A stretch of DNA of 64,000 nucleotides from Zygnema cylindricum (lineage: Eukaryota; Streptophyta; Zygnematophyceae; Zygnematales; Zygnemataceae). The stretch covers positions 32,342 to 96,341 of the forward strand of contig JBBHKE010002665.1 of assembly GCA_037447655.1 (NCBI GenBank), read 5' to 3'. Shown here piece by piece: positions 22,397-43,401 of this stretch. A program made the translations under genes and the position numbers. How positions within the stretch are numbered: the first letter of the stretch is position 1; each line of letters opens with the position of its first letter. The notes below the pieces were generated by a model. The model was given only the letters and a program-made list of their open reading frames with translations, was not told the DNA's origin and made no database searches.

Positions 22397-23340
22397 GCAT
22401 CTTTGGGGGGGTACATTGTAGATAGCCACGTAATTTTTGGGGTTTGCATCTAGATTAAGCTGTTAGACGTCAGTTGGAATTTAGTTTAGGCACTGTTGAC
22501 CTTTGGTCCATTAACTACATTAGGTCAAAGTATGGCAAGTTAGTGTCCTTTTCAAGACTTTGTCTTGTAATAGTGGACCAAATAATTACTTCCGACCGCG
22601 GATCTAGCCGCAGTCTGGAGCAGAACCTTTTGCCACGAGTTTAGTATACATTATTTTGTCTTGTGTCGGTTCCCTTACACTTGCATGCCGCTCAATAATT
22701 TATAGCGTAGCTTTGACTTTTGGACTTGCAATTTTACAAACTTTGATGTTTAAGGCGCTTGGGGTCGAACAAGACAAGTTGCTTTTCTGTACTCTCACCT
22801 GTGAAAACTCTTAGAAATTCCAACAAACCTTCTTTTGGAGAATCTTTGATTTGTTTGACTCTATTGCCATCTTGGTTTTGGATATGTCTTTTGTGGGAAT
22901 CACAATCCCGGTGGGTAGTTGGCACTATTTTATTTTTCGGTGATTTTTGGACTTTTTGCTGTTTGAAACCGAGAAGAGTTTAGCCGGTGCCGAGACGTGG
23001 ACACCGGAGGTTGAAGGAGCACCATATCTATTTACAATGCTATTGGGAGAGGGATCGCCTTTCTCTCGTTGTCATCGTTTATTGTTGGGGTATGTTAAGC
23101 TTTCTTCGCTATATTTCACATTCTCTTTCTTTTATTCTCTTTTCTAGGACAAGGTGATATTGTTAAATCTAGAATGCTAATCCTGTTACCTAAATAGTTC
23201 TACGTGGTAGTGCATTTGTGTCTTCATGTGGAGTTCTCTTTGCTTTGGAGTGAACCTCTCGGAGTAGACTAAAACCCCTTGGATCAAGATAGTGGGTTTA
23301 CAGAGAACATGTGCGATCGACTTCTCGTAAAGGAAACACA
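22397..23340 (+). repeat. G2 5' LTR (5'-truncated)
   Basis: Matches 41010-41946 of the 3' LTR (GTGGACCAAATAATTACTTCC, TCTAGCCGCAGTC and GACAAGGTGATATTGTTAAA in both). The first 0.5 kb of the LTR is absent at the head-to-head junction. The 3' edge is near AGGAAACACA at 23340; I could not identify a convincing primer site after it. Confidence 0.65.
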
Positions 23341-23516
23341 ATACTGAAATGCCACCTGTCCACTCGAATTGGAGGGGATAAGAGCTTTGACTTTGTACGC
23401 TCTCTTTTTGGAAGTGAGCTCTAGTTACATTCATTAAATTTTTGCTCATTACCTGTGACATCATGGGGGAATGAGAGACTCCGGATAATGGATCCGATAA
23501 GTAGGGTCAAGAGGAG

Positions 23517-24464
23517 ATGCCCGTACAAGAGGAGAAGTCTCAGGGGACCAAGGAGTATGAACCCATGGAGTTTGTCTTAGATTCTCTTACCAAGGAACCG
23601 GCTGTTGCTTCTTCCCCTCCTCTTCCTCCAAGGTTAACTCCCGAAAATTATCCTTCCTTGGCGGAGGCTGCTAGGGTTTATGTCGAGGAAAGGAAAGAAG
23701 CCCGAGCTCAGGCCCAAGAAAGGAACCGAGTGTCTCGCGGTGCTCGGCCAAAGCGGTAGGCGCAGAGGGAGCCCCATTTGGGTCTTCTTGTGGATGTCGG
23801 GCTTCACACCAAATCCAAGATTCCCTGAGCTGAGATCCAAATAGACAGCGCGATTTTGAAGAATCCTCGTCGTCCAGATCGTAAGGAGTTCCTTGCACTT
23901 CATGACCTCCATGAGCTGAAGGTGAAGAAGGAGGTTGTGTAGAGAGTGGCTTGGACTAATCGAGTTAGGGTGGTTAGACCCGTGGGAGGGGTGGTGAAGA
24001 TTTTGAGCAGTTATTTGGAGAGCAGCTCTTCACAGTCGGTGCCGGACCGGTCACAAAGAGTTCCCTATTCTCGCCCTCCTCCCTCTTACTCTCAGGAAAC
24101 CACAGCCAGTAAACCGTCCCAAGGGCGGACCTCCTCGAGGCCTCGTAGAGGAGAAGGGGTTAGCAAGAGGGAAGCTCGAGATACCTTGAAGGGAAAGAGG
24201 TTTGACCACAGGGACAGCAAGGGGAGATTCACACCTCTTCCCAAGGAGGAGAAGTCCCCAACTCTTGTGTCCGCCTCCACAGAGAGATCTTTTCCTACAA
24301 CAACTTATGTCCGCCCTACCGAAGGGCTATGGCTATCCAAACCAACTAATCCAGAGGTTCCGGGTACGGGCCCAGAGGATTTGTTCGAGGGAGGGTGGCG
24401 GACCAGACGTGATGATCCCGAAATTCTAGGGATGGAGATAGCGGATCTTACCAAAAATTGTTGA
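23517..24464 (+). pseudogene. G2 gag N-terminal region
   Basis: Two open pieces (23517-23759 and 23946-24464) joined by a frameshifted stretch. Blocks match G1: EEKSQ, ENYPSLAEAARVYVEE and VVRPVGGVVKILSS, then a Ser/Pro/Arg-rich region with many basic residues. No known domain. It precedes the helical block at 24481. Confidence 0.55.
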
Positions 24465-24480
24465 AAAGGCCAAGGAAATA

Positions 24481-24687
24481 GTGGAAGTTCTTAAATCTCA
24501 AGGCAAGGCTACAGCGGGGGCTGGACCCTTCACGGTGGATCGGGAAGCCTTAGAGGTAGAAAGGCGGAAGCTATGGGAACAGGAGTTGGATCTTATTCGG
24601 GAAGCTAGGCGTATATCTAGTGGGATTCTCTGCGGGCAGATTGCTCCTACATTAAGTACCGAGCCGCATCCTGACGCCCTAGCTTAG
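24481..24687 (+). pseudogene. G2 gag helical segment
   Basis: 68 residues, a Glu/Arg-rich amphipathic helix (VDREALEVERRKLWEQELDL), probably a coiled coil for gag multimerisation. G1 has the equivalent twice because of its duplication. Confidence 0.45.
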
Positions 24688-24855
24688 GGGAATTCTCCTC
24701 TTCGCGAAGCACCCGTCCAAGGTTCCTTCCTCTTATACCAGCCAAAGCCTCCTCTTCAAGGGAAGGGAAGAAACATTGACCTAACATGAAGATTTGGGTG
24801 GAGATTTACCTCTGATCTGTTTCTCTTCCACTGAAGAACTATCTTTGTATCAGAA

Positions 24856-25557
24856 GTGGAGGTTGCTTTCCGTGGTGGCTTTGGTGGAGTTCACGACAGC
24901 GAGAGGATTCACATTCCTTTGAGCCCGTCAACACCACTTTCACCAACTCCCGGAAGATCTTCTCCTCCTCTATCATCTCACATTCCCGGTCTTATAACCG
25001 AGTTGGGGGAGGTTCTCGCCCCCTCTCCCTCTTCATCCTTTTCTCTCGCTGCGGCTGTTCGAAGGTCACTAGATCCGTCTGTCTTACCCTACAAACACCA
25101 CGTTTACTCACCACCTCAACAGTGTTCCCCATTCTCCAGCTCAAGAACTCCCCCTCTCGAGTCCTCCTAAAGGCGATGAAGGAGACAGACACCATTCAGG
25201 AGATAGACATCTTCTCCTCAAAACCCCCAGTCGTCCTCTTCTCCACCACCACAGATTCCCCAAGGACCTTCTTTGAACGAACCTCGCCTCCTTATCCCAT
25301 TGGTGGAGCAAGTTCTTAGGGAAGAACAATACTCTTCTGGATATAGAGGAGTAGTGGGGAACATCATTCCTCGAACTATATATTCAAGTGTAGATACTTC
25401 CTCTTTGGGAGGGGGATCCTCACCTTTAAGGGTAGCACCTCCTACCAGAGGAGGAGACAGTTTCGTACCTGAGGAAAAGGACGCCAAAGTAATCTCGCTT
25501 GTGCAGTTTGTCAGTCCTACGGTGCCTTTATCTTCCTATTTCTCCAATCCTGCTTAA
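24856..25557 (+). pseudogene. G2 gag Pro/Ser-rich region
   Basis: Open pieces 24856-25170 and 25273-25557 in different frames, rich in Pro and Ser (IHIPLSPSTPLSPTPG). Corresponds to G1 3470-3896 and 5531-5855. Low complexity; no function can be read. Confidence 0.42.
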
Positions 25558-25569
25558 GAAGAAAAAGAG

Positions 25570-25875
25570 ATGGGGGACATCTGGATCTTTAAGGGAGATA
25601 GCTCGGGGATGGCATTCTCCGATTTCGAATTGTTGTGGAAATCATTAACCCAATGTGATATCAATAAATACAAGGGAAGAGTCATTTTGGAGGACTTTGA
25701 AACAACCCTCTTCACCATGATGGTCAAGTACCTTTCTGGAAAGGTGTTGGCGGATTACAAAGAGCGTCAACCTCTTTTGATGGCCCCTAGCATCAAAATC
25801 TCGGATCAATTGCTTTTTGGCGTAGCTGCCGAGGAGGCTAACTTGACGCCTGTCCCTTGTGATGGCTACATCTAG
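25570..25875 (+). pseudogene. G2 gag capsid-like block
   Basis: MAFSDFELLWKSLTQCDIN ... LADYKERQPLLMAPSIKISD, strongly matching G1 3430-3026. It stops at TAG 25873-25875; the rest of the domain seen in G1 is missing here. Confidence 0.55.
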
Positions 25876-26163
25876 AGACATGTAACCATGAAACTCTGAG
25901 AAACAAGGTCCACAATTGATCTTACGAGGGGCTACCGTACTATGGCCCGGATTTGTCGTTTATTCGCGTAGACCTTTGATAATTGGACGGCGGAAAAGGA
26001 GAGCGAAATTAACCCTCCTAGGACATTTCGTTGGTGGCAATAAAATTGTAAAATCACTTTGTCCATAGTGAGACGCGAGTGGTACAAAGTAGAAATTTTC
26101 TTGAGTTGCCGGGGAGACTTCATTGATTGAGGAGGAATAAGCTGACTTGAAGCTTGAAGCTTA
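25876..26163. other. Unassigned insert in G2 gag
   Basis: G1 has continuous gag at the equivalent place (about 3100-2600), but here the sequence is unrelated until 26600. No frame, LTR edge or target duplication could be assigned to this part. Confidence 0.3.
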
Positions 26164-26598
26164 TGTTAGATTTCCTGAAATGGATTCACATGTCCACACT
26201 TCAAAATTGAGCCGGCGGGGTTGAACACAGGACCTTTCGCCCACCGCGAACTACCATCGCCACCATTTCGATGTTGGCCCGGCGGCATCTTATTTATTAG
26301 TGCTCGGTATGGATATTTCCATATCTACCCGTGGGACCCGCTTCCGTGGCCAATCCCCCCCCTCCGCGGAAGCCCGTCAAACCATCCGATCCCGCTCGTA
26401 CCATGTTAGATTTCAGAAATCCGGATTCTGCATGTCCCACACTAAAATTAGTACCGGATTGAACACGGGACCTTTTCCCTCTCATAACGCATGCATTGAT
26501 GTGAAATTTGGCCCGGTCGTCACCCATTTATTACGGCTACCGAGTATGGATATTTCCAGCCCTACCCCGTACGACGCCACGTGCAATCCAACAGCTTA
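26164..26598. repeat. Two-unit direct repeat, period about 240 bp
   Basis: Both units begin TGTTAGATTTC (26164 and 26404) and share blocks such as TTGAACAC(A/G)GGACCTTT and GTATGGATATTTCCA. The TG start suggests two degenerate small LTRs or a tandem duplicate of one. It displaced part of G2 gag. Confidence 0.5.
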
Positions 26599-26599
26599 A

Positions 26600-27110
26600 G
26601 GGGAAGCAAGTAGCAAAGAGCGGGTCAAAACTAGCAATGGGAGCAGATGAGCGAGTGTTCTTTTACAATTGTATGAATTGTCACTAACCAGGCCATAGGC
26701 GGAAGCACTGCAGCCGAAAATTGAAACCGGAGCTAGCACTAAAGCAGAAGGAATGGGAAAAAGAACGTGCAGAGAGGACCCGAAAGTAGCAAGAACGGCT
26801 CAAATGAGAGGGGGGGTGGGAGAAAACACCGGTAACCAAGGATACTTACCGCCCAAAGCCCCGGAGCGAAACCTCTAAGATATCCCAATCTTAGTTGCGA
26901 CAAATCAAACTTCCAAAGTTTGATGAGGCTCAAATCTCCAACGAGATCCTGATTAAATATACCACCAAGGGCGTTAAGTATGAAGCTTATGGTTTTCTTG
27001 GCCACAAGGAATGGCAATGTTTCCGGAAGAACGAAGTTCCTAAGGAAATGATGAAATTTGCTTTGTTTACTGGAGAGGGGGAAATGGCTATTAACCCCCT
27101 CCCACTTTAA
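26600..27110 (+). pseudogene. G2 gag nucleocapsid, two zinc knuckles
   Basis: From about 26645 the frame gives ADERVFFYNCMNCH-stop-PGHRRKHC, a CX2CX4HX4C knuckle with all four ligands but one nonsense codon. It is followed by a Lys/Glu helix and then KYEAYGFLGHKEWQC, a second knuckle that kept His and the last Cys while two Cys became Tyr. The open piece 26895-27110 carries the second knuckle and a C-terminal tail. Binds the RNA genome in retroelements generally. Confidence 0.6.
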
Positions 27111-27560
27111 CTTCTTTACCCTTGGGGGCACCAAGTTCCGTCCCCGCCGGAGAGACGTTAGCGGGCATCGGTTGCTCCGACAAGGCTTTTGCCGGAAATC
27201 ATCATACAGCAATAGAGTCAGCAAACTAGCCGCAATGGCTGTAGAGTTAGCTGCCTCCGCTTGAAGTCTTATTCTCAAGATGCTCTCTTAGTGCAAAGCA
27301 TAATGACTCCAAAAGCAAAAACATGAGTTGATACAGTCAGCGTAACTTGAGCTTCAAGCACAGTGAATGCCAACGATGACGACTTATTGGGTTAGGATTT
27401 GGAACCCCCAAATGCCCACCATGCCCAAACTTTCCTGTCCGGAGCTTGGAATGTTAGGGTGGGAGAGAGTCGCTGCCAACTCCGCAATTTCACCTCGATG
27501 CAAAGACAAGACAGGCAGAAAATGGGTTAGAGGGATCACAACCGAAAAACTACAGGGCGT

Positions 27561-28610
27561 TTGTCATTTACTCTCAAGGCAGTAATACTGTACATCAACA
27601 TTGGCCAAGGAATCAAATCCAATCACCCACCATCTCTTCCTTCCAAACCTAAATTGCCTTCCGGTTTTGAAAATTACCAGAATGAGAAACAACAGCAAGA
27701 GAAGGAGTCACTGGAAGAAGAAAAGAAAGATAATCACGACTGGTTTGAAAAATATATGGCAAAATGCTCGGAGAATGACACTCCCCAAACACTTCTAGTC
27801 GCAGAATCCGGCTCCGAGAGTGAGAAAGAAGAACAAAATCAAGATCCGCAGCAACCGAACTCATCCCCATCTTCACCGAAAGCAACCATTCTTTCCTCTA
27901 AACCGGTTGATATGCTAGTCCGGCACCTCATGCCATTTGCCCTCACAGACGTGAAGACTCTAGCATCCTCCCACAACCTGTCTGAAGAAATCCTCATTGA
28001 GGCATTGGGAGAAGAAATCCACTCTAGAAAAGGGAGGGTTGACAGGGTATCCTCGCCAATGGCAGGCTTTTTGTCCACAAACCCGGAAACACTTTTAGTG
28101 GATAGGGACTACAATGCCTTATGGGCTTTTATACTGAACCGAATAGGAAACTTCAAGCTCAGCGCGTACAGGGGATACCATGACGCTGTGGTCGACACCG
28201 AAGAGCTCCCTAATCTCATCACCACCTCTGCTTTTAAAAAAATGCCCGAGGAAATCCGGCCTGAAATCTGCCCAAGCAATATCTACTTAAGCACTGTAAG
28301 CAGCGGCAATCAACTAGTCCATGGAATAATCAAGGCCATGGAAATCAAGTTTTCTGATGACACACGCCAACGGGTGAAAATTGAGCTTCTCTTCTGTGTG
28401 GTGGATGGGACCCAATTCGAAATTCTGTTGGGAATGGCCACTTGGACCCGGCTCAATATGAGTTTGAGCATATGGAAGGAACAATGTACCGTTCGAGACC
28501 CCGGAAATCCGGAACGAACCACAGTGGTGGTTCCTTTAGATTTAAGGAACCGAATAAGACAAATGTCCCAGTGTTTGGTTGCTACCCAGTGTACACTACA
28601 TCATCTTTGA
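27561..28610 (+). pseudogene. G2 linker and retropepsin-like protease
   Basis: 350 residues open. Residues 1-130 are an acidic Glu/Gln/Ser-rich linker. Residues 115-175 include VDMLVRHLMPFALTDVKTLA, conserved with G1. The protease-like part has AVVDTEELPNLI with Asp-Thr-Glu at 28194-28202, then FCVVDGTQFEILLGM, the flap/ILG strand of retropepsins. The usual third residue of the active-site triad is Gly. The frame is lost near 28610, just before the methyltransferase; there may have been one polyprotein. Confidence 0.68.
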
Positions 28611-28702
28611 CGGAACTATTTGGTAGTTCTACCGATCTCGCCAGAGAAATCTAAGAAATCCCAATTTCCAAGCGGTGGGAAAAAGAATATAAGAATAGAT
28701 TA

Positions 28703-29716
28703 TTGCAGGTAGCAAAACTCTGGCGGGGAGTGGATAAGGCGATTTCAGCCTTATCATTAAAAGAAGTCGTTTCTACACCATTTTCTAATGCTTCCAAACA
28801 CAAGTTTGATAACGAGGAGTTCAATCGACAAGTGGTGTCATTGGCAGTCTCCGATTCCGGACTGCGTATTTTATCTTTATTTTCAGGAGTTAGTTCCGAT
28901 TTGGAAGCGGTTTTGAAAACATGATACTAGGTGGAGTCATACGCAACCATGGAAATATTACCCGAGCCTTCAGCTGTCAGCAAACACCGCCTCCACCAAT
29001 TTCATCACCTATATCCTCAACAGCTACTGGTGACCTCCTTTTCCAAAGCTCACAGGAGCCTTCCCCAAATGTAGAAAACATCATGGCGACCGATCTAACC
29101 AATTTTGGAAAAGTGGATTTGGTGTCGGCAGGCTGGCCTTGTCAAGGATACTCCCTCGCGGGACAAAGGAAAGGGCATCAAGAGCGCAGAAGTGGAACAT
29201 TTTACCGGATGATTAAATTAATCAAGTGGCTTCAACAGCTACAAGACACACCGATGCGGTTCTTTTTGGAAAATGTCCACCCAGGTGATGATAGAAGAAA
29301 ACAAGTTGCAGACAGCTGGAATCATGTAACCCGGATTTTAGGAGCTCCCTTGGTTTTTGACGCCCCACAGATTGGATCCCATGCACACAGAGTAAGGGCA
29401 TATTGGAAAAATATGATCGCGCTTCTAGTACTCCAACGACTGCTGGACACACAAATTCCCGACCCCCTGAATTCGGTGAAGCAAATACTTAGGGAAGGCA
29501 AAATGGCCACCTTGTGACGCGACCAAACTACTCTCCTTTCTTTTGGTGTAATAAACCGGGATTACTACGAAAAATACTCCTGATTTTGGCTTCTTTCCCT
29601 AACAGACACGCTTATCAGAAAGTAGTAGCGGGAATGATTTTTGACAGTAAGGCGGGGATTTGGGCAGCACCAACAATTGCAAAACGAGAAGAAGCAATGG
29701 GATTTCATAAAGGCAC
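28703..29716 (+). pseudogene. G2 cytosine-5 DNA methyltransferase, motifs I-VIII
   Basis: Motif I, ILSLFSGVSSDLEAV, at about 28866-28911 (S-adenosylmethionine binding). Motif II region, MEILPEP. Motif IV, GWPCQGYSLAG, with catalytic Pro-Cys-Gln at 29137-29145. Motif VI, RFFLENV (29257-29277). Motif VIII, QIGSHAHRVRAYW (29368-29406). The segment after 29518 continues in another frame toward motif IX (EEAMGFHKGT). Stops at 28922-28924 and just after, plus two frame changes, make it a pseudogene. The PCQ tripeptide separates it from plant DRM/DNMT3 enzymes, which have PCN. It would methylate cytosine in DNA. Copia A1 inserted at 29717 cuts it. Confidence 0.88.
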
Positions 29717-30605
29717 TGAAATTCTGTGGTCTCGATTGACCCACTGAATGAGCAGCCTATGTAAAGCCTCTAGGATAATATTTGCCCCTTCTACTTTACC
29801 GCTGAATAAGCGCTTCCCATGCACCCAAATATTCTGAATACTCTCACCCCTCTGAGGACAAGACTACCCATAGTCAAACGCAAAAAGAATCACTGAATTT
29901 GCTCCCTTGAGCTGTAAGTTATGGCTGGTCAAAGATGACCTTTATAGTTACAAGCTCTCTTAGAGAGAGAGGTACCTAAATATTACTAAGTCTTGGTCTG
30001 CCTACTCACGACTACCTACTACTAAACACTAGTCCAATAGGAACACTATATAGTACAAGAAGGTACAATGGGCGATGTACTTATTGTACAACCATTATAC
30101 GACAAGGTTTACAAGGTGACACCTGTCTAATCGGAAGCCATGGTTCCTCCTCCCATCTTCTCCGGTATCAAATAATGTGGTGCCACTTGGCACCGCGTGA
30201 CGCTATATTCGTATGCTGCCAAAAGCTCACTTCGCGTGGCGGCTATAATGCCGGTCGTCCAATCAAAACATATTTTACATGGTTCAGATTCGCGTACATG
30301 CAGGAATTGCTCCTTTTGGTTAGTCTGCTGTTAATAAATTGTTGCGTTAATGTATATGTATTTATGAAACCCTTCACGTATGTCGTTTCGTAACGCCTTA
30401 ATGGTTAAGGCGTTAGACTATAGAGAATCTAGAGGTCGCAGGTTCAAATCTAGACTTAGGCATCATTTTAGCAAAATACCCTTTACTTCAAAAACTGCCA
30501 CTTTCTAAATATTGCGGCAGCCATGGCGCGCCTTTCATCCTCACTCTCTTTCTTTAAAGAAAAACTAAAATAGGGAAGTGAACTATTAATTACCTCTTTT
30601 CAACA
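29717..30605 (-). repeat. A1 3' LTR
   Basis: 889 bp, TGAAATTCTG ... TTTCAACA. Contains CTATATAG (30046-30053) as a TATA candidate, a GTAC cluster around 30053-30095, and the tRNA-like cassette. Confidence 0.9.
30388..30469 (+). other. tRNA-like Pol III cassette in A1 3' LTR (best A box)
   Basis: TGGTTAAGGCG at 30402-30412 fits the A-box consensus TRGYNNARNNG at every position. B box GGTTCAAATCT is at 30441-30451 and TTTT at 30466-30469. The 39-bp box spacing is in the tRNA range. Antisense to the element. Confidence 0.6.
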
Positions 30606-30618
30606 CTCCCCTTAATTC

Positions 30619-32900
30619 CTAGTCACTTTTCAATTTTAATCCACAGTTTTCTCTGCAATAAATCAACTTAGGGGAAGGCACTGATTTTGTCATCATGTTT
30701 GCAATCATTTCTCTATCAGTTTTATGAACCAATTTAATAATTTTATTTTCTACCTTCTCTTTGACAAAGCTTGGTCTAATATCCATATGCTTAGCTTTGA
30801 AGTGATGTTTCGGATTAGCTGCAATAGAGATAGCAGCTTGATTATCACAAAAAACATTTTGAGTTCCAAACTTCATGAACCCATGTTCTTTAAGAAGAGA
30901 TTTCACCCACATTAATTCTTTGGTGGTAGCACAGGAAGCCATGTATTCAGCCTCCATAATGGATTGAGCAACTAATTTTTGTTGCTTGCTACTCCAACAA
31001 CATGCACCAGATCTAATTTGCAACACATATCTAGTCTTACACCTCCTTAAGGCACATCTCCATAACTGGCATCACTCCAAGTGGTGATGTGAGTGTGCTC
31101 CCCTCCCAAATGCAACCATAATTCCCTTGTCCCCACCAAATACCTCATCACCCTTTTTAGTAGCCTACCAGTCTCTCTTTCTTGGTTCATTTAGATTTCT
31201 ACTAAGGACACCTACAGCTGCAGCTATATGCGGACGGGTACAGTTTATAAAATAAATTAAGCTCCATATAATCTGTCGATAAGGGATATTTTCCATAAAT
31301 CTTCTTTCTATCTCATCCATCTCATCATTAATGATCAATATTCCTCCCTCTTCACACCCCCCACACACTTTTTTCAAATCCATAGGAGTAGTACATCCGT
31401 TTGCTTTCTCCATTTGAAATTTTTCTAGCATATTACTAATATTTTCTTTTTGAGTTAGTCTTATAATCCTATTCCCTCTATCTCTCTACATTTGAATTCC
31501 CATAATGTACTTTGCTTCGCTGAGATCTTTCATGTCAAAGCGGGTTCTAAGATCTTGTTTTAGTTTGTTAATTTTATCTAAGGACTTGCTTAAGACCAAC
31601 AAATCATCCACATAAATAGCAATAAATATCACTCCATCCTCATCCTCAAATATTTATATGGAGTGATCTGAACTAATTCTGATATACCCCAAACTGGTCA
31701 GAAATTTGTCAAGCTTTATATTCCACTGTCGCGGGGCTTGCTTAAGCCCATAGAGTGATTTTATCAGTTTGCAAACTTTATTTTCTTCCCCACCTTCCAC
31801 GAAACCTTCCGGTTGCCTCCTGTAAATTTCTTCTTCTAACTCTTCGTGCAAAAAGGCCGTTTTAATATTCATCTGGTGGATTTCCATATCCTCCGCTGCG
31901 GCTATACTTAAAAGGATTCTAACCGAAGGAAATTTCACTAGAGGTGCAAAGGTTTCTTCGTAGTCTATCCCCTCTTTTTGAGTATATCCTTTTGCAACTA
32001 ACCTAGCTTTGTTCCTCTCAATGGTATTTTCCGGATTTACTGTAAGTTTAAAAACCCACTTACATCCAATCGATTATCGGTTCGGTGGACAATCTACCAA
32101 CTCCCATGTATAGGCTTCCATAATAGAGGCCATTTCTTCATTTATAGCTGTGATCCACCGGCTACTTTTTGGAGTGTTTATGGCCTCTAAGTATATGTGA
32201 GGTTCATCTGGGTGAGACATCTTTGTGAGTTGGTTTTTTACTTGTCTTTCTTGAAGTCGTTTATTACTTCTTCTCCCCCCTTCAAAATCGGACGCCGGTA
32301 TAGAAGGAATCCTTGAGTTTCGTTTAGGGAGATTTTCAGCTCCCCTATCTTCCAATTCCGGTGTCTCATCAAGTTCCTCATCGATTTCCACTTTGTATTG
32401 TGGCGTTGCCTCGGATGTTGTCCTTTCCTCCTTCTCCTTTGGTAGATCTGCAGATTTTTCTTTTTCTCCCTCTTCTTTCTCTTCATTTTCAAAATCAAAG
32501 GTAGAAAACTGATCCGTTTCAAATCTTATTTTGACTTCCTTATTATATTTGAATGGATCAATGGACCTCTCTTCATTTATCTTTACTATGTGTTTCACTT
32601 AAATTATATCTTTCTTTTTCAAGTCATACACTCAGTATCTTTTTGTGCTCTCATCATATCCTACAAGATATCCTAGGTTCCCTCTTCCCTCTAACTTCCA
32701 TTTAGTCTTATCGGAATCCAAACTGTAGACTTGAACTTTGAACACTCTCAAACTAGACAAATTAGGTTTTCTTCCTGTCCACCTCTCATACGGAGTTTCC
32801 TCCTTATTTGCTGAAGTTAGGACTTTATTTTTGATGAAATGAGCATAGTTCAAAGACTCCGCTCAAAACTACAACCCTATCCTCTAATCAGTTAACATAC
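30619..32900 (-). pseudogene. A1 integrase C-terminus, RT and RNase H
   Basis: Pieces in order: TPYERWTGRKPNLSSLRVF (32853-32632), linker with WITAINEEMASIMEAYTWEL (32598-32074), RT with [20 protein letters not shown] and [11 protein letters not shown] (31938-31654), further RT (31431-31165) and RNase H with CCWSSKQQKLVAQSIM and FCDNQAAISI (31026-30619). Nonsense codons shared with A2: TAA at 31654-31656 and TGA at 32863-32865. Private ones include TAG near 31487. Inactive. Confidence 0.85.
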
Positions 32901-33202
32901 TTCTGGACATATCTCCTAAAGTTTTATTCACTCTTTCTGCTACTCCATTTTGTTCAAGATTATAGGGAACAGTTTTCTCATGATGAATTCATTTTTCCTT
33001 AAGATATTCTTCGAATTCCCTTGAGGTGTATTTTTTCCCATTATCACTTCTTATCTCTCTTATTGAGGTTTTAGAAGTTTTTCACTCCATACTTTATACT
33101 CTTTGAAACAGCTTAATAACTCGGACTTATGTCTGAGAAAGTATACCTTCGGTATCTAGACCAATCATCTGTGATGGTTAACATCCATCTCTTCCCCCCA
33201 TG

Positions 33203-34600
33203 TTAAGCATACCTAGCAGGTCCCCAAAAATCAGTGTGAACTAGATCTAATATTTTCTCTCTCCTAAATGTGGTTGCCTTTGGAAATGGAAGTCTATGAA
33301 TCTTCCATTGGGCACATCCACTATAATCATCAATGGTCTCATCATCCTCAAAAGTAATACCCTTCACTATTCCTTTTTTCTTCATTTTCTTTAATCTATC
33401 TAGATGCACATGCCCCAACCTTTTATGGCAAAGCATCATCTCACTTGCACGCGAGTAGAGAACACTCTTTTCATTGCAAAGAACAATTTTGAACATTCCT
33501 TGATTGCCTTTCTCAACTATGAAATAAACCTCATTATCAAAGCTTGCTGTGAAGATTCCTTTCCTAGTTCTTGTTTCATACTCATTTTCATCTAAGAAAA
33601 CTGTTGAGACCAAGTTTTTACTAAACTGTAGAATGTAAAGAACGTCTGAAAGTGTTACAATTGAGGCCTTTCCTTCAACTAGAACCTTCAAGTCAACAGT
33701 TCCAACAAGACTTGTGGTTTCTACTCTACCATCTTCGTACTTTATCTCAACTCTTGGAATCTTTCTCAGTTTAGTGAACCACCTTTTATCTTTGCACATA
33801 TGCATTGAGGCCCCTGAGTCTATGATCCACCAATCTTTAAGTGGTTCCCTCTTACCTTTGAAAGCACAATTTTGTCTCCGTGGAATGTCAACATGCTTTT
33901 TAGTGTTTTTCGGATTAAGAACAAGCTCCTCAAGCTCCTCATCTAGTTCAGTTTTTCCTTCCACTTCCTCATCATGAACTTGAGTCACGAAAGCCTTTTT
34001 CTTTCCTACATCAATTGAGGTTCCCTGACCATCTTTCAGTCGAAGATCTGCAAGTTTGGCACAATCTGCCATATAGTGTCCCGGTTTCTTGCAAAAGTGA
34101 CATAATCCTCCTCGAGAAGTTCCTCTCCCCTGTCTATCAAATCTGCCACCTCCTTGTCCTCTTCCACCAAATTTTTGATAGGGATCTTTCTCTCTCTCCT
34201 CATCACGCTTCCGCCAATCAGCGCGTGCAGACAATGCTTGAACACTTGGACTCCCTCTCTTAAGCTCTATGGTGATTTCTTTCCCTAAAATCATTCCCAA
34301 TGTGTCATCCCAATTCCAATTGCTATCTCCCATGTCCTGCAATTGGTTAATGATATTCTCATACTCTTCAAGTATTTTCATCATTAATGTGTTCACTCTT
34401 TGTCTCTCGGACCATGAGTTACCTGCACTCTCTAACTCTCCAAATAATGCTCCTAAATCATTGCAATAATTATTCATACTTCCTCCTTTATACGTATAAG
34501 CTGCAATCTTATTTTCGGCCAACTGTTGTTGCTGCAATGATCCTCTCTTATATTTATAAACTAGTGATATCCAAATCTGAGATGGAGATTTGACATGCAT
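33203..34600 (-). CDS. A1 gag core, zinc knuckle, protease, integrase N-terminus
   Basis: 465-residue open frame, the longest survivor of A1. In order: gag core (QQQQLAENKIAAYTYKGGSM, WSERQRVNTLMMKILEEYE), an intact CCHC knuckle CHFCKKPGHYMADC, Glu-rich spacer, protease WWIIDSGASMHMC, GAG-pre-integrase CHKRLGHVHLDRL and integrase start HTDFWGPARYA. It stops at TAA (33203), where B reads on. The start Met is arbitrary: upstream gag is frameshifted. Confidence 0.8.
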   Translation of the reverse strand: MHVKSPSQIWISLVYKYKRGSLQQQQLAENKIAAYTYKGGSMNNYCNDLGALFGELESAGNSWSERQRVNTLMMKILEEYENIINQLQDMGDSNWNWDDTLGMILGKEITIELKRGSPSVQALSARADWRKRDEEREKDPYQKFGGRGQGGGRFDRQGRGTSRGGLCHFCKKPGHYMADCAKLADLRLKDGQGTSIDVGKKKAFVTQVHDEEVEGKTELDEELEELVLNPKNTKKHVDIPRRQNCAFKGKREPLKDWWIIDSGASMHMCKDKRWFTKLRKIPRVEIKYEDGRVETTSLVGTVDLKVLVEGKASIVTLSDVLYILQFSKNLVSTVFLDENEYETRTRKGIFTASFDNEVYFIVEKGNQGMFKIVLCNEKSVLYSRASEMMLCHKRLGHVHLDRLKKMKKKGIVKGITFEDDETIDDYSGCAQWKIHRLPFPKATTFRREKILDLVHTDFWGPARYA

Positions 34601-35054
34601 AAGAGAAATGGCAATGCCCTTTGCTACACTTTTAAGAATTAAGATCTTAGCAACCTTGTCTTTGTGGTTCCACTTTTCATACTCTAAACTTTCTGTCTAA
34701 ACCCTTGTCGCCGTTTTTGGTGGTGCTGCTGCCGATATCGCCTTTGGCAATGGTGTCACTTGAGTTGGAACTCCTCCCTTTTCTCATTCCATGACAATGT
34801 CCTCTCTTTCCTCATCTTCATCCTCGGTGATGGTGGCAACAGTTCTACCAACTGTAGAGGCGGAGGTGCCATAAAAATGTGTCCCTCCAATCCCAAGTGG
34901 AGGTGGGAATCGAATTTGTCTAGACACTATGCCCTATAGATGCTTCTAAAATTTTTCTCCCTACATCATTCTTTCCCAATAAATAAAGTCTGATCCATCA
35001 AATATGGGCACCCTAAAGGGTGGGCCGATAACCTGAAATTCTGTGGTCTCCGTT
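34601..35054 (-). pseudogene. A1 gag N-terminus (frameshifted)
   Basis: Reverse strand retains the equivalent of MGPPSRVPIF (next to the primer site) and the following residues, but in broken frames. Corresponds to A2 11657-11926. Confidence 0.6.
35019..35033 (-). other. A1 primer binding site (half initiator tRNA-Met)
   Basis: GGTGGGCCGATAACC on the plus strand, one mismatch to the tRNA interior seen intact in B; abuts the LTR. Confidence 0.72.
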
Positions 35055-35922
35055 GACCCACAGAATGAGCAGCCTATGTAAAGCCTCTAAGATTATATTT
35101 GCCGCTTCTACTTTCCAACTGAATAAACACCGCCCAGGCACACAAATATTCTGACCACTCTCACCCCTGTGAGGAAAAGACTCTTTTGAGTCAAACGCAA
35201 AAAGAATCACTGAATTTGACCCCACTGAGCATTAAGTTATGGCAGGTCAAAGATGACCTTTATAGTTACAAGCTCTCTTAGAGAGAGAGGTACCTAAATA
35301 TTACTAAGTCTTGGTCTGCTTACTCATGACTACCTACTACTAAACCCTAGTCCAATATGAACACTATTTAGTACTAGAAGGTACAATAGGCGATGTACTT
35401 ATTGTACAACCATTGTAAGACAAGGTCTCCAAGGTGACACCTGTCGAATCGGAAGCCATAGTTCCTCCTCCCATCTTCTCCGTTATCAAATAATGTGGCG
35501 CCACGTGGCACCGCGTGACGCTATCTCCGTATGCCGCCAAATGCTCACTTCGCGTGGCGGCTAAAATGTCGGCCGTCCCATCATAACATATTTTATACGG
35601 TTCAGATTCGCGTACATGCAGGAATGGCTCCTTTTGGTTAGTCTGCTGTTAATTAGCAGTTGCGTTAATGTATATATATTTATGAAACCCGTCACGTGTA
35701 TCGTTTTGTAACGCCTTAATGGTTAAGGCGTTAGGCTATAGAGAATCTAGAGGCTGCAGGTTCAAACCTAGACTTAGGCATCATTTTAGCAAAATACCCT
35801 TTACTTAAAAAATGCCACTTTCTAAACATGGCGGCAGCCATGGCGCGCCTTTGATCCTCACTCTCTTTCTTTAAAGCAAAACTAAAATAGTGAAGTGAAC
35901 TATTAATTACCACTCTTGAACA
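35034..35922 (-). repeat. A1 5' LTR
   Basis: 889 bp, TGAAATTCTG ... CTTGAACA. Same length as its partner but with clearly more differences than the B pair. Confidence 0.9.
35706..35787 (+). other. tRNA-like Pol III cassette in A1 5' LTR
   Basis: A box TGGTTAAGGCG at 35720-35730, B box GGTTCAAACCT at 35759-35769, TTTT at 35784-35787. Confidence 0.55.
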
Positions 35923-35927
35923 GGCAC

Positions 35928-36066
35928 CACGGCAGCACGAAGTAATTCAGACCTTTAAAGGTGCATCTTAATTGGGCACAGTATGGATCTTAATTTAATC
36001 ACATGGGTACTCAAGCATGCACTCGCCTTATCCAGTCTCAAGTCCCAGAAATCCTGGGCTATTTTC
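35928..36066 (+). pseudogene. G2 cytosine methyltransferase, C-terminal end
   Basis: Directly past the GGCAC duplication the text continues the methyltransferase. It includes MDLNLITWVL (35983-36012), which resembles the motif X end of DNMTs that packs against motif I, and closes at TAA 36066 or nearby. One internal TAA. Together with 28703-29716 it gives a domain of roughly 400 residues. Confidence 0.6.
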
Positions 36067-36360
36067 CTTCAAGCTCCTTAATTTTTAGCGATGCAGGCAA
36101 CTTTGCAGCTTGAGGGGGGGAGAGAAAACAGAAGAAAAATTCACATTTCACTACCGCAAGTTTTCCCAGTGGGGGGGGGCGGCGGCTCAGATGGCGACAG
36201 CTTAGCGAAAGTTGTCAGCAGTAGCGTCCTAGCCGGAGGAGTAGAGGCAGATGCATTTGTAGGATTGGAATTCGACATTAGCCTCTGGGGTAAACCGCTA
36301 AAAGCTTGGGCTCCTTAGAGCTTGGGAAAATGGATTGGACACTAAGGGAGCAGTTTCATA
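36067..36360 (+). pseudogene. G2 spacer between DNMT and RT
   Basis: Holds one short open frame (36091-36318) with a poly-Gly run and no recognisable domain. It could be a pol linker, or out of frame altogether. Confidence 0.3.
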
Positions 36361-36586
36361 CTTAACAAAAGGCTCGGCTCTCCGAGCTATAAGCCGAAAA
36401 TAAACAAGTGTTCTCATGGTCAGAAACAGGTGTCAATATTTACAAAAGAACACCTTTCCAAATCGATTTGATCAACGAGACGGCTACTATTTGGCAGAAG
36501 CACTATCCTCTCAATTTCAAGGAAAAATAATTCATCACGGCTAAATTACAGACTTTGGTGGAAGCTAGATTGGTTCAAGAAAGTAC
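36361..36586 (+). pseudogene. G2 RT, N-terminal part
   Basis: The frame gives TPFQIDLINETATIWQKHYP and LVEARLVQESTG, matching the start of gypsy RTs (the usual text has PI.Q..YR and an LL..G.I..S blocks). It is interrupted by solo LTR E1 at 36592. Confidence 0.65.
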
Positions 36587-37299
36587 AGGACTGCAATTCT
36601 GTGTCCTCCATTGGATCACAGTATATAAGAAGCCTCTAGATAGTATTTAACTAACCCACTTTAAGCCACAACCACTGCTGTCTAGGAAGGCAAAATGTCA
36701 ATTTGACTGCACCCCTGTGGAGCGTGGACTCCCTTGAGTCCGTAGAAAAAAAAATTAATGAAATTGGCCAACCAACCGATAAGTTATGAGGCAGTAAAAA
36801 ATGCCAATTTGTACAAACTCTTTAAGGGAGGGTTGACTGCCTATCAAAATTTTCTAAGTCCTGATTCCCTCAAATAACTTCTACCTACTAAAGTATGGAC
36901 CAATCAAATTACTGTACTGTACCAAAAAGTACTACAGCCGGTGTACCTTTTGTACGCCCTATGCACGACAAAGCTATTAAGCGGACGCATGTCTACTTTT
37001 CACTCGTTCGTACATTCCTTGGAATTCCCATGACCGAATGTCATCTCTCCAGGTGGCTCTAGGTCATTCTACGTCACAAAACACCAAAGTGACCACTCCG
37101 GAATTTCGGCGATGATGTGCGCCGTTGAATTTGCAGCGATACGCAATCTTAGCCGTTATAAATACTTGCGCGATATTTGTTTCGCTGTCTAACAAAATGC
37201 GTGGTATCCGTTTTTGAAATTGAATCATACTTCGTACTTTCATAAAACTTTATCTATGTGTGTCGTATACAATTTTAGTTAAATGGATTTGTTCCTCCC

Positions 37300-37305
<6 letters not shown>

Positions 37306-37357
<52 letters not shown>
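37306..37357. repeat. (AT)n microsatellite inside E1
   Basis: About 25 AT dinucleotides; absent from E2, so it expanded after E1 inserted. Confidence 0.9.
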
Positions 37358-37358
<1 letters not shown>

Positions 37359-37374
37359 ATCACATACTATAGCA

Positions 37375-37478
37375 TTTAGCATTGGTCCTAGTCTTATAGG
37401 ATAAAGCTGACCGCTATCGGCCAACTTGACGAACCGAAGGTACCGGGATCAAATCCTGGGTCCGTCAGGTATATTTTT
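37375..37478 (+). other. tRNA-like Pol III cassette in E1
   Basis: A-box-like AGGATAAAGCTGA, B-box variant GGGATCAAATCC at 37445-37456 and TTTTT at 37474-37478. Confidence 0.42.
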
Positions 37479-37665
37479 AGTAACCTACTAATAATAACTG
37501 CTTGTTGAACTAAGGCAGTCATGGATCAACCACCCTCTCTATCCTTCAGTGACTACAACAAGTATGGGGGCTAGAGAGAGGAGGTGGAGGCAGGTTGCCC
37601 GTCCTTTTCACTTACATATTTAAACCTAGAAAATACTCTAGAAATCTACTAATTTAAGCAAGGAC

Positions 37666-38340
37666 TTCATGGGTCCGCTTCCTCGACAGTTCTCCCTCCC
37701 AAGAAGGATTCTTCCCGGAAGGTTGTAGATTTTTGGATGTGTGGAGATTATCGCATGCTGAATACGACCACCATCTTTGATCGATATCCGATGCCGACCC
37801 CGAAAGAGATATTTGACTCCTTTGCTAGCGCCACTATCTACTCCACTCTGGACATGAAGAATGGTTTTTGCCAGATTAGCGTGGAACTGAAGCACAGGGA
37901 GAAAACCGCATTTTCGGCCGGTTTTAGACTTTATGATTGATTTATATGCCATTCTGGCTTAAGAATGCAACGGCCAAATTCCAACGGGCAATGGACCAAG
38001 CGCTCTGAGGAATTGATTGTGCGCGGTGCTATATTGATGATGCTATTATATTCTCAAAGACTTTTGAGGAACACCTGGAGCATGTCCAGATCGTTCTCCG
38101 GGCACTCAAAGTAGCCAGCTTGAAATGTCACCTAGGCAAAGGTATTTTTGGGGTACAGAAGATCATCTACCTTGAACATGAGGTGACTCTGGGACTGTGG
38201 GTCACCACATGGTCAAAGTGGCAGCCTTTGACGTTCTCCCCCCACCGCAGGACATCTCGGCCATTCGCACCTTCTGGGTCTGGCCAAATACATCGCCGGT
38301 TTATTCCCGAGTTCAGTAGTCACACTCAGCCCCTTAACTA
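37666..38340 (+). pseudogene. G2 reverse transcriptase (palm)
   Basis: Gypsy RT motifs: VLPPKKDSSRKVVDF (37690s), CGDYRMLNTTT (37740s), STLDMKNGFCQISV, then the catalytic YIDD at 38030-38041 followed by IIFSKTFEEHLEHV. Frames change several times between 37937 and 38341. The order RT before integrase places G in Ty3/gypsy. Confidence 0.88.
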
Positions 38341-38850
38341 GCTATTGCGAAAGGACCAAGAGTGGCAGTGGGCCGAAGAACAACAGATATCCTTCCAGTT
38401 CTTGAAGGATGCTCTGAAGCAACACTCGTGCTCCGGATGCCTAATCACCAAAGGACTTTCCTCCTTTATACCGATTAGAGCAGGTTTGGATTAGGAGCAA
38501 TTTTGCCTCAAATGGATGATGCTAGAGATGAATATGTAGTGGCCAACGCCAACCAGAGCAACAACACAGCAGAGGGGAATTTTATCAGTTACCACGGAGA
38601 GTTACTTGTAGCAGTTTAGGCCATTCAGCATTTCCGACCTTATTTGTACCGAGTCCATTTCACCTTGGTTACCGATCACCAACCCCTAAAATGGATCATG
38701 AAAAATAGTAAGTTAACCAACAAACTTGCCAGATGGGTTCTTACCCTACAGGAATATGATTTCGACATTTTTCATTGGGCAAGGGAAATCAATGGGAATG
38801 TTGACGGACTTAGCCGGAACCTTGATCCCTCCACAATAGATTCTACCGGA
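38341..38850 (+). pseudogene. G2 RNase H
   Basis: Connection domain (QEWQWAEEQQISFQFLKD), then RNase H with the characteristic HFTLVTDHQPLKWIM (38656-38700) and NGNVDGLSRN near 38790-38820. Typical of gypsy pol. A stop at 38340 and shifts near 38490 break it. Confidence 0.82.
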
Positions 38851-39000
38851 GCTCGGCATGATGAGGACCCTGAGATGAGTCTGGGGTTCATTCGAGCATC
38901 CTGTGCTTTCATCTGGCTTCCCCAATCTGGGGGTGAACTATCAACTTTTTCGACCAACGTGGAGGGGCAGGCGCCAATAGGGGCCGGATGGAAAGACATC

Positions 39001-40270
39001 TAGAACGATCCCGATGCTCTCCAATCTATCTAGCGAAGGTCGCCTCTTCCCCAAATAACTGGAATTGAATTATCCCGATAACAGACCAAGGTGGCTGCTA
39101 TGATTGGGACGAAGATGTTCTTCTTTGGAAATGGTCAGACGGCACAAAGAAAGTGGTTCCTCCCCCTCTGACCGAGAAACTTTTATTTCCAATCTCCATC
39201 GGCAATGTGGACACTTTAGGCAAAAGCGGACCACCTCCCTAGTTACAGGCTCTTAATGGTGGCATGGGTTGTCGACCCTAGTCAACTGAATTGTGCAAAC
39301 TTGCTCCTCATGCGATCGAGTCAAGGCGGTTTTTAACAAAAAGGGCCGGACTGAGCTTCATTCGCTTCCTATCAAGTGGATGATTTATCGATGGTCGTTG
39401 GATATTTTGGGACCTCTTCTGACCAGCAAGCGTGGGAACTGCTTTGTGCTGGTCATGATAGAACATTTTCGAAGTGGATCGAGTTGGTGGTTTTACCTAG
39501 GAAGGAGTCCAAGGAAATTGCAAATCCCTTTTTGCAGATGGTTTTAGCCAAATTCGGGGCGCCTGCCGAAGTTCTAACCGACCAAGGCTTCGAATTTGCC
39601 AGAGAATTTTCCAACCTCTTGGAAAAATGCGTGGTCGACCATCGGCTTACCAGGCGTGACCACCCTTAAGTCGACGGTTTGGCCAAAAGGTCCGTGTAGA
39701 CAGTGAAACGGTCACTACGAAAACATGCAGTTGAAGAAGATTTGGGGGAGTGGGACAGAAAAGTGCCTTGGATCACTATGGGTTACACATTCAGCAGGCA
39801 GGCTTCTCTCCACTCCTATATCCTTTTTTTCATTCTCTTTGGACGGCATCCCTTCTTGCCCGGGACTGCATCGGCCCAATTGGTGGTCCTCCGGAGATGG
39901 ATGCCAAGGGGACTGTTGAAAAATTGATCGCCAATAGAGCCAAGATATTCCACCGAGAGACACCTCTCGCCATGGGAAATTTGCAAGCGGCTCAACACCG
40001 AGATCAGTTATGGTATTCTCAACGCCGGAACATGAATTATGTTCCCTGGCAGCGACGATTTATACTGGGGGACTTTGCCTATCGGATGCAACAAAAGAAG
40101 GACACGCTGGATATTTCTGCCGCGAGAGTAATTTTGAAAGTGGTTGAAGTCTCCAACAAAGGGGTTTTTACATTGGAGGGAAAGGATGGTCGACGAATTA
40201 AAGAGAATCAGATCAATGTTGCCCCTTGCAATCTCCGGGGATTGGAAGACGAACCCACTTTCCACTTAAC
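39001..40270 (+). pseudogene. G2 integrase
   Basis: Zinc domain HHCC remnant (WWHGLSTLV ... QTCSSCDRVKA, about 39260-39315), catalytic core with Asp in WSLDILGPL (about 39400) and Asp in LTDQGFEFA (about 39580). The expected catalytic Glu is Lys in DGLAKRSV (about 39675-39695), followed by a stop. The C-terminal GPY/F-like region (DFAYRMQQKKDTLDI, FTLEGKDGR) runs to about 40215 and leads into the PHD finger in the same frame (39750-40421). Confidence 0.85.
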
Positions 40271-40275: not shown

Positions 40276-40446
40276 TTGCCAATCCTCCTTCTTGTTCATC
40301 AGTTTGCACTCAGTCCTCCTATCAACACGACATATTTGTCTGCAATCAGTGTGGTCAGTGTTGGCATTCAGCATGTCTCCCCTCCTCTTGGGAGACACAC
40401 CCTCTACCCTCCAGCACCTAGTTTTGTGGGAACTGCGAATGGAAGG
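40276..40446 (+). pseudogene. PHD-type zinc finger at the integrase C-terminus
   Basis: Ligand codons: Cys 40293, Cys 40305, Cys 40341, Cys 40350, His 40365, Cys 40374, Cys 40425, Cys 40434, a C4HC3 series with spacing X3, X11, X2, X4, X2, X16, X2. The core CNQCGQCWHSACL matches the PHD signature of a Trp just before the His. One TAG (40419-40421) falls between the sixth and seventh ligand. The domain ends in CGNCEWKG and TAA, about 35 bp before the polypurine tract, so it is the true end of pol. PHD fingers commonly read histone H3 tails; here that would guide integration. A RING or other treble-clef fold is less likely, given the ligand order. Confidence 0.78.
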
Positions 40447-40495: not shown

Positions 40496-41946
40496 TGGGA
40501 TATCAGCCTGATAACCGAGACCCAAATCCCTTTCACCGACCAAGGGGGGGGGAAAGGAAGGGGGAGAGGATAACTTTCGCCTTTCCTGCGCTCAAGCCTA
40601 TTCCCTTTCCAAGCATCTCCCATATTTCGCATGCATATCTATGGGAGGGGTGTGGGTAGCAGTAGGCATGATCATCATTCTGGGAAGCATTCACATTTGA
40701 GGGTTATTTGCAGGACTCCGATGCCAAAAACTTTGGGCTGTGGGCCTTTCCTTCGCGTTGATCAGGCACGCTCAACGGCTCTCAAGCTATGTGCTTTTTA
40801 GGCATACCTTTATATCACCAAGGATTTCCAAGCCCTTTTAACCCTGTACAGTCTTCAGAGTACAGAGGGGGGAGTCACCAAGCCAAACGAGATCCTTCTA
40901 TTTCCTAAATTGAGCGGAACGGACTTTATTTGGCAACTAACGGATACCATGCAACAAAGTTCTACCGGCTCAAAGATTAAAATTTCCTTACATTGGACCA
41001 GTTTCAAACAGCCCTCGTGGGGGGCACATTGTGGATTGCCACGTAGCTTTCCGGATTTGCATTTAGATTATACTGGTAGCCATTAGTAGGAAATTAGTTC
41101 AGTCTTAGCTGACTTTTGATCTATTAATTACGTTAGGTCAAAGTTTGGCAAGTTAGTGTCATTTTCAGGACTTTGTTTTATAATAGTGGACCAAATAATT
41201 ACTTCCGGCCGAGGATCTAGCCGCAGTCCAGAGCAAACCTTTTTGCCTTGAGTATATTACGTATTATTTTGTCTCATGTCAGGGCCATTACACCTGCTCG
41301 CCGCTCATTGGTTAATAGCGTAGCTTTGACTTTTGGACCCGCAATTTGACAAACTTTGATGTATAGGGCGCTTGGGGTAGAAGGAGATAGTTGTTGTTCG
41401 GTACTGTCTCCTGTGAAAACTCTCAAAAAATCAAAGAAACCTTCTTTTGGAGAATCTTTGTTTTGCATGACTTTATTGCCATCTTGATTTTGGATCTGTC
41501 TTTTGTGGGAATCACAGTCTGGGTGGGTAGTTAGCACTATTTGCTTTTAAGGTGATTTTTGAAATTTTTGCTGTTTGAAACCGAGAAGAGTCTAGCCGGT
41601 TCCAAGCTGCAAACACAGGAGGTTCAAGGAGTACCATACTTATTTACGATACTGTCGCGAGAGGGATTGCCTTTCTTTTGCCGTCATCGTTTATTGCAAG
41701 GTATGTTAAGCTTGCTTCGTTATTTTTCACATTCTCTTTCTTTTATTCTCTTTTCTGGGACAAGGTGATATTGTTAAATCTAGAAAGCCAATCCTATTAC
41801 CTAAATATCTACGTGGTAGTGCATTTGTGTCTTCATCTGGAGTTCTCTTTGCTTTGGAGTGACCCTCCTGGAGTAAACTAAATCCCCCTGGATCAAGACA
41901 GTGGGGATTGAGGGAACAAGTGCGATTGACTTCTTCAGAGGAAGCA
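40496..41946 (+). repeat. G2 3' LTR
   Basis: About 1.45 kb beginning TGGGATATCAGCCTGAT. Its second half matches 22397-23340. The 3' edge is set near GAAGCA (41941-41946) by comparison with the 5' LTR end; it could be a few bases off. Confidence 0.72.
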
Positions 41947-41953
41947 CTAAAAC

Positions 41954-42436
41954 TGGGATATCAGCCTGATTACCGAGACCTAAATACCTTTCCCCGGCTA
42001 AGGGGGGGGAAAGGAATGGGAGAGGATAACTTTCGCCTTTCCCCTTCGCTCAACCCTAATCCTTATCCAAGCATCTATTTTGAATGCATATCTATAGGAG
42101 GGATGTGGGCAGCAATGGGCGTGATCATCATTCTACGAAACGTTGGCATTTGGGGGTTATTTGCAAGACTCTGATGCTGACGACTTCGCGGTATGGGCCC
42201 TTCTTTCACGTTACTGAGGCACGCTCGACAATCCGCCTAGATGCCCTATCTCATCTATGCAATTAGAATCTATTTTTTGAAAGACAATTGCGTGCTAGGC
42301 ATGTTTTGGAGGCCTTCGGGAGGGTTGGTGAACAACTCATGTCGTAGTTCACTAACCAACAAATCCACAGTATCCTCTTTGTGGCAAAAAAATTGATTGA
42401 ACCGCTCGTCATTGTAACGTTGCAACTTCTCATCTG
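41954..42436 (+). repeat. Start of a further G-family LTR
   Basis: Repeats the LTR start TGGGATATCAGCCTGAT 7 bp past the end of the G2 3' LTR and follows it closely to about 42235; the last 200 bp are diverged or unrelated. It is cut by element D at 42437. Confidence 0.65.
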
Positions 42437-43383: not shown

Positions 43384-43401
43384 GGTTATGGACCTGTCAT
43401 C
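43384..43401 (+). other. D primer binding site (half initiator tRNA-Met, decayed)
   Basis: GGTTATGGACCTGTCATC abuts the LTR. Same position and first eight bases as the intact site of B. Confidence 0.6.

Follow-up and report, generated by a model that had tools for sequence, protein, structure and literature searches.

A DNA methyltransferase inside the Pol of a Ty3/gypsy retrotransposon family in the green alga Zygnema cylindricum

Introduction

Why would a retrotransposon carry a DNA methyltransferase (DNMT)? DNA methylation is a main weapon of hosts against transposons, and therefore an element with a methylase of its own reverses the usual story. The question is raised by a stretch of 64,000 nucleotides from the streptophyte alga Zygnema cylindricum (GenBank assembly GCA_037447655.1, contig JBBHKE010002665.1, positions 32,342 to 96,341), the whole of which we call the window. 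A sequence-only reading had placed a cytosine-5 DNMT here, between a protease (PR) and a gypsy reverse transcriptase (RT) on one strand. The explanation we favour, at slightly better than even confidence, is that the locus is a decayed Ty3/gypsy copy with a DNMT3-type enzyme between PR and RT and a PHD finger after integrase, and that the family would use this enzyme to pre-mark its new copies.

Results

The window copy lies on the plus strand between direct long terminal repeats (LTRs) at 22382-23346 and 40996-41955, which are 83.2% identical over 966 columns. Inside them, translations and tblastn with the Gag frames of two relatives, C2026 and C1374, find Gag remains at 23386-27041, with zinc-knuckle-like stretches toward the end. 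A retropepsin-type PR follows at 27840-28651 (open reading frame 27531-28610; 66% identity over 240 amino acids to the PR frame of C1374 by tblastn, a frame that itself matches Asp_protease_2 at E = 2.1e-4, below the Pfam cut-off), and then a stop codon at 28652-28654, TAA here and TAG in most relatives. The DNMT comes in two parts, motif I to the start of motif X at 28655-29717, spread over three frames (tblastn, Pfam, translation), and the end of motif X at 35923-36123 (tblastn, 69% identity). RT is likewise in two parts, 36285-36596 (tblastn with open copies) and 37662-38190, with YIDD at 38030-38041 (translation, Pfam, tblastn); the 36597-37661 between them is about 1 kb of unrelated DNA including a TA run. 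The end of RT, RNase H and the zinc-binding and core integrase domains occupy 38191-39924 (Pfam, tblastn). A PHD-like finger with one internal stop lies at the C-terminal end of Pol, at computed coordinates 40302-40436 (PF00628, E = 0.0015), and tblastn with open copies carries this end of Pol to 40448. By its order of PR, RT, RNase H and integrase and its direct LTRs, the element is a Ty3/gypsy LTR retrotransposon.

The methyltransferase motifs named from the letters alone are all on the plus strand: ILSLFSG (motif I) at 28868-28888 in frame 1 and, in frame 0, WPCQGYS (motif IV) at 29134-29154, LENV (motif VI) at 29266-29277 and QIGSHAHRVR (motif VIII) at 29368-29397. In frame 0, the 207-amino-acid open reading frame at 28894-29517 scores 48.9 bits with Pfam DNA_methylase, above the cut-off of 22 (E = 8.2e-13). 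The DNMT of an open relative aligns collinearly to 28655-29717 and again to 35923-36123, ending with motif X, which fits the motif X-like end that had been proposed at 36066. The presence of a DNMT is thereby confirmed, with two corrections to the proposed interval, 28703-36066: about 6.2 of its 7.4 kb is a minus-strand Copia element, and RT lies mostly outside it. This nested element (29717-35922, about 6.2 kb) splits the DNMT within motif X; its LTRs, at about 29717-30605 and 35033-35922, are 90.7% identical, and the repeat GGCAC stands on both sides of it (29712-29716 and 35923-35927). Broken by frame shifts, stops and this insertion in its DNMT, the gypsy copy of the window is old and dead.

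The window also has another such copy, broken like the first, which runs on the minus strand into the left edge. Its Gag remains lie at 2193-3602 and its PR at 558-1380 (both tblastn; 48-70% identity for PR), followed by TAG at 555-557, then CAATTC, and by a DNMT at 6-554 that runs on into the left flank (motif translation, tblastn). In that flank tblastn with pieces of open copies found integrase and a PHD-like end, and did not find the end of the DNMT, RT or RNase H. Further minus-strand Gag pieces lie at 5531-6440, 13000-13670 and 20265-21133 (tblastn).

Copies of the family are numerous across the genome (352.8 Mb, 2,689 contigs). The DNMT piece of the window gave 1,367 first-look candidates, and all 150 that were scored matched at E <= 1.3e-54; a Pfam DNA_methylase search gave 782 candidates, and all 123 scored were above the cut-off. 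At least 44 of the Pfam loci, by a hand count that excludes the host gene L023, were absent from the first list, so the genome holds at least about 190 DNMT-element loci. At least one of the Pfam matches, L023, is a host gene, whose exon is best matched by 9mvy, 7ubu and 4fsx (E = 3.4e-29 to 3.7e-29), the last of which we take to be maize chromomethylase; its next-best chains, also named DNMT1, reach only about 1e-12. The stretch L048 (C514:120001-130000) covers a chromomethylase-like host gene, one exon of which was identified through L023. This exon points to a streptophyte host, as do light-harvesting genes (88 of 150 scored candidates matched; best single-domain Protein Data Bank match 8htu_U) and GRAS genes (27 of 28 scored).

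An alignment of ten copies picked for open frames (326 columns) separates three of the three or more lineages in the genome: A, with the window copy; A2, which shares 57-59% identity with A; and B, at 41-42%. Motif IV is mostly GWPCQGYS in A and A2 and mostly GWECQGMS in B. Some copies have long open frames. The lineage-B copy C1344 is a single open frame of 2,395 codons, Gag-PR-DNMT-RT-RNaseH-IN-PHD (IN, integrase), in which the zinc knuckle is at its Pfam cut-off, the protease below it, DNMT, RVT_1, RT_RNaseH, Integrase_H2C2 and rve above, and the PHD finger well above (E = 3.1e-10; 40.4 bits against 24). Its 931-bp LTRs are identical, which points to a recent insertion. The lineage-A copy C1374 runs from DNMT to PHD within 1,520 codons, with LTRs 97.8% identical over 1,186 columns. 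The 3' LTRs of both copies are preceded by GACAGC and begin with TGTC (GACAGCTGTC), and no polypurine tract was seen. The observed/expected CpG ratio is 0.89 in the young C1344, 0.66-0.68 in three other copies and 0.67 in the whole window.

To which DNMT family does the enzyme belong? Against chains of solved structures, a profile built from the ten copies matched DNMT3A best (E = 3e-19); M.HaeIII (1.4e-8), 4onj (3.4e-8, presumably a DRM), M.HhaI (7.2e-8) and DNMT2 (2.2e-6) came far behind, chains named DRM2 began at 1.3e-7, and no chain named DNMT1 appeared at E <= 0.01. In predicted fold, too, DNMT3A/3B stand closest. The ten-copy alignment shows motifs I, IV, VI, VIII and X of a C5 cytosine methyltransferase in that order, with motif I before IV to X and hence no DRM-type rearrangement, and all ten members match Pfam DNA_methylase; the catalytic cysteine is invariant in 41 of 41 alignment rows. 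Although DNMT3A/3B are the closest solved sequences and folds, they carry PCN, which is absent from motif IV here (GWPCQ or GWECQ instead), and, unlike them, the element pieces scanned contain no ADD or PWWP match. The PCQ had been taken to speak against a DNMT3 or DRM origin. That argument is not supported: by both profile and predicted fold the enzyme is DNMT3-like despite its PCQ or ECQ. As to a bacterial or viral source, narrow peptide patterns confirmed none of 12 matching stretches in genome contigs as a locus and gave one weak locus (29% identity) from 19 stretches in viral contigs, which is weak evidence of absence.

The junction between PR and DNMT suggests how the enzyme may be expressed. 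In A and A2, TAG closes the PR frame, and the DNMT frame carries on without a change of phase, with CAA followed by TTC, in some sequences by TTT and once by TTG. With the stop position left free, a pattern search over the retrieved loci gave 26 distinct junction sequences: 24 with TAG (one followed by TAA), one with TAA, which is the window copy, and one with TAT; decayed junctions are under-counted, because loci were retrieved by DNMT similarity and the pattern requires a kept FPIS-like motif. The second window copy, missed by the pattern, also reads TAG CAA TTC. Lineage B, as seen in C1344, has no stop at the junction. TAG-CAR is close to the readthrough context of the tobacco mosaic virus type. 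An in-frame TAG-CAA kept in two lineages suggests stop-codon readthrough. A changed genetic code behind the TAG was rejected, since under the standard code the 2,395 codons of C1344 contain no stop.

The DNMT is under purifying selection, judged from the ratio of nonsynonymous to synonymous rates (dN/dS). Among 13 DNMT sequences (78 pairs, 16 not saturated), dN/dS was 0.11-0.39 in ten close family-A pairs, 0.13 and 0.14 in two A2 pairs, 0.21 in one B pair and 0.07 for C161 against two others (dS about 2.4, near saturation). Within the polyproteins of three copies open far enough, of six tried, values were 0.13 and 0.06 for the DNMT (two computable pairs), 0.67, 0.31 and 0.27 for the adjoining linker and 0.07 and 0.02 for RT (again two pairs), with high dS in the C161 pairs. 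These values place the constraint on the DNMT above that on the linker and below that on RT.

Relatives are found in other green algae. A protein search with the DNMT profile gave 271 matches at E <= 1; the species named among the 120 listed were Closterium sp. NIES-53 and NIES-54. P0081, a Closterium protein, has RT besides DNMT. Motif IV was present in 78 of the 120, as PCQG (63), PCQD (6), ECQG (6) or ECQD (3), a tally that includes P0001. With P0001 as query, a sequence with degenerate letters, none of the 1,458 candidates matched at E <= 0.001. A search of long proteins gave 49 at E <= 0.1, among them P0157 from Mesostigma (the name taken from 'Mesvir1') and P0168 from Haematococcus lacustris; no Klebsormidium name occurs among the matches bearing species names in either set (120 listed; 49 long proteins). 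Retroelement domains are listed in 44 of the 49 and a PHD finger in 29 (hand count). DNMT and RT occur together in 38, in two gene orders: three have DNMT before RT as in the window (type 1) and 35 have RT before DNMT (type 2), the other 11 being pieces without RT. The type 2 order is RT-RNaseH-DNMT-IN-PHD, with the DNMT between RNase H and integrase where integrase is present; P0160 and P0162 have stray weak integrase matches. Three relatives (P0132, P0133, P0160) also list PF01585, which we take to be G-patch, another possible added domain.

Unrooted trees of DNMT and RT from the 31 rows of sufficient length in each domain (5 type 1, 26 type 2) agree on the split between types, with support of 100/99 and 100/100 respectively, and several smaller groups are common to both. 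A wider unrooted DNMT tree of 106 rows (9 type 1, 34 type 2, 63 unlabelled) retains the split; in it A and A2 group with P0002 (100/98), and B joins P0122, P0123 and P0003 (100/99). Support for its deepest branch is weak (72/4), and several rows sit on long branches. Because elements of other organisms part A from B, the A/B split is probably older than the Zygnema host. One capture with a later shift of position and two captures would both fit these unrooted trees.

The finger at the end of Pol probably reads histones. In lineage B and type 2 its sequence presumably resembles readers of unmodified lysine 4 of histone H3 more than readers of the trimethylated form. A PHD family search of the genome gave 984 candidates, and all 150 scored matched; by hand count, a scored DNMT match on the same strand lies upstream of 18 of these at 3.5-5.3 kb, measured from start to start, and of another two at 2.0 and 6.8 kb. 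A Protein Data Bank search with the IN/PHD piece of the window found no match at E <= 0.1, nor did pieces of C1344 and C1374 give a chromodomain match after integrase at E <= 0.1. For Zygnema cf. cylindricum SAG 698-1a, PHD proteins are described as at least nine times more numerous than in sister strains (PMC9915684), an excess that may consist of element PHD fingers annotated as genes. The assembly of SAG 698-1a_XF is given as 359.8 Mb in 3,587 scaffolds, with 29.8% Copia and 5.9% Gypsy (PMC11096116).

The rest of the window is a patchwork. Further nested Copia-like material lies at 4644-19752 and 42716-60000, and it includes Copia gag, integrase and RT domains in three neighbouring open frames (288, 719 and 445 codons) at 14740-19104. 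Adjoining the 5' LTR of the gypsy copy, 21552-22356 has 69% identity, inverted, to the gypsy LTR; it is perhaps the LTR of the minus-strand copy, the two elements starting head to head. At 62179-63880 there is a satellite-like tandem array of a 101-bp unit, with two unit types alternating.

Discussion

We propose that the DNMT acts on the element's own new copies. In lineages A and A2, occasional ribosomal readthrough of the TAG would let a low dose of the enzyme, made within Pol, enter the particle. After reverse transcription it would methylate the new double-stranded complementary DNA (cDNA), while the PHD finger would bind histone H3 tails and guide integrase to particular chromatin. A fresh copy would then land pre-marked, either hidden from host defence or tolerably quiet while it persists. 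The SymbioDIRS-Dnmt3 domains of dinoflagellates methylate CG in yeast, and cDNA methylation is proposed for that DIRS case in the main text of PMC5890265; following this proposal by analogy, cDNA methylation seems the most likely role of the Zygnema DNMT.

Several observations weigh against this proposal. The window finger scores 19.0 bits and that of C1374 17.1, both below the PF00628 cut-off of 24, which only lineage B clearly exceeds. No PHD is listed in 20 of the 49 long relatives, some of them incomplete, and P0126 and P0135 span integrase yet lack the finger. Subfamily B, with ECQ beside the catalytic cysteine and without a TAG, shows that readthrough and the usual motif do not hold throughout the family. 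RNA folding in the 100 nt downstream of the TAG differs between copies, with z = -3.75 for one of A2 and -1.13 and -1.39 for two of A. Saturation affects 62 of the 78 dN/dS pairs, one near-identical A2 pair gives 1.4 on very few changes, and the family-A row is a long branch in the RT tree. Inspection of the ends of two copies revealed no clear target-site duplication. Finally, yeast with the Gypsy-Dnmt3 domain of Klebsormidium showed no methylation, a result called inconclusive by its authors (PMC5890265).

The enzyme might instead act on host chromatin, on rival elements or on the neighbourhood of the insertion, with the PHD finger choosing the site. Such a role would suit the many copies and a polyprotein that unites a writer with a probable histone reader, and animal DNMT3 pairs its methylase with an H3-reading ADD module. 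However, the DNMT is placed ahead of RT or else flanked by RNase H and integrase, not beside the PHD finger, and as part of Pol it would meet the cDNA first. We regard action on host chromatin as unlikely, if still worth serious attention. Rather less probable is that the domain methylates RNA, either element RNA or the tRNA primer, or only binds nucleic acid in the RT complex. DNMT2 acts on tRNA, and the ECQ of subfamily B departs from the usual PC motif; yet profile and fold are nearest the DNA enzymes DNMT3A/3B, with DNMT2 far weaker, and the catalytic cysteine does not vary in the 41 aligned rows.

We reject, as very improbable, the idea of a captured host fragment riding along without function. 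The broken window copy and the stops within the match in many scored copies would fit a passenger, but its dN/dS is low relative to the adjoining linker, catalytic motifs are kept between lineages only 41-59% identical, and the DNMT and RT trees agree. A host DNMT gene among transposons, or an assembly artefact, has only the patchwork of nested elements in its favour and is refuted by two collinear copies in the window and many elsewhere, a single-frame polyprotein and relatives of the same make-up from other sources; on this the sequence-only reading was right.

Chromoviruses are Ty3/gypsy elements with a chromodomain at the C-terminal end of integrase; they too place a chromatin-reading domain there, whereas the Zygnema element has a PHD finger, and a DNMT in addition. 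A DNMT inside a gypsy Pol is itself already known. KnitGypsy-Dnmt3 of Klebsormidium nitens, as described in the main text of de Mendoza et al. (2018, PMC5890265), is an intronless, unrearranged Dnmt3-type DNMT under purifying selection inside a Ty3/gypsy Pol, and is treated there as an independent acquisition in its lineage. It shares with our case a streptophyte algal host, the Ty3/gypsy class, the place in Pol and the selection on the DNMT. It differs in a repeat structure called DIRS-like, where the Zygnema element has ordinary direct LTRs; its copies are fewer than those of such elements in Symbiodinium, and the words PHD, chromodomain and readthrough are absent from that main text. SymbioDIRS-Dnmt3 and SymbioLINE-Dnmt of dinoflagellates are also retrotransposon-borne DNMTs but belong to DIRS and LINE elements (PMC5890265), whereas the Zygnema element has LTRs and an rve-type integrase, with no tyrosine recombinase match in the pieces scanned, which does not fit a DIRS assignment. 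DNMT3 members embedded in retrotransposons are reported more generally for streptophytes and dinoflagellates in the text of PMC12344493. An orchid Ty3/gypsy element likewise captured a nucleic-acid-modifying domain, in that case an m6A (N6-methyladenosine) RNA demethylase in flowering plants (PMC9289625). The PHD partner, the second gene order and the conserved TAG were not found reported in the main texts of the open-licence papers searched.

On these comparisons the Zygnema family is apparently wider and older than the Klebsormidium case. We tentatively extend our proposal, with somewhat less than even confidence, to an old gypsy lineage, present in both main branches of the green algae, that would combine a DNMT3-type writer and a PHD reader in one Pol. 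The writer would be dosed by readthrough in some lineages, the pair would place and pre-mark new copies, and a single capture would have been followed by a shift, in either direction, between the positions before RT and after RNase H.

Taken together, these results suggest that methyltransferase-bearing elements of green algae form a family wider and older than the Klebsormidium case alone, often with a PHD partner, in two arrangements of genes and possibly with a dosage signal of its own. With such a family in hand, the question of what elements gain by methylating DNA becomes testable.

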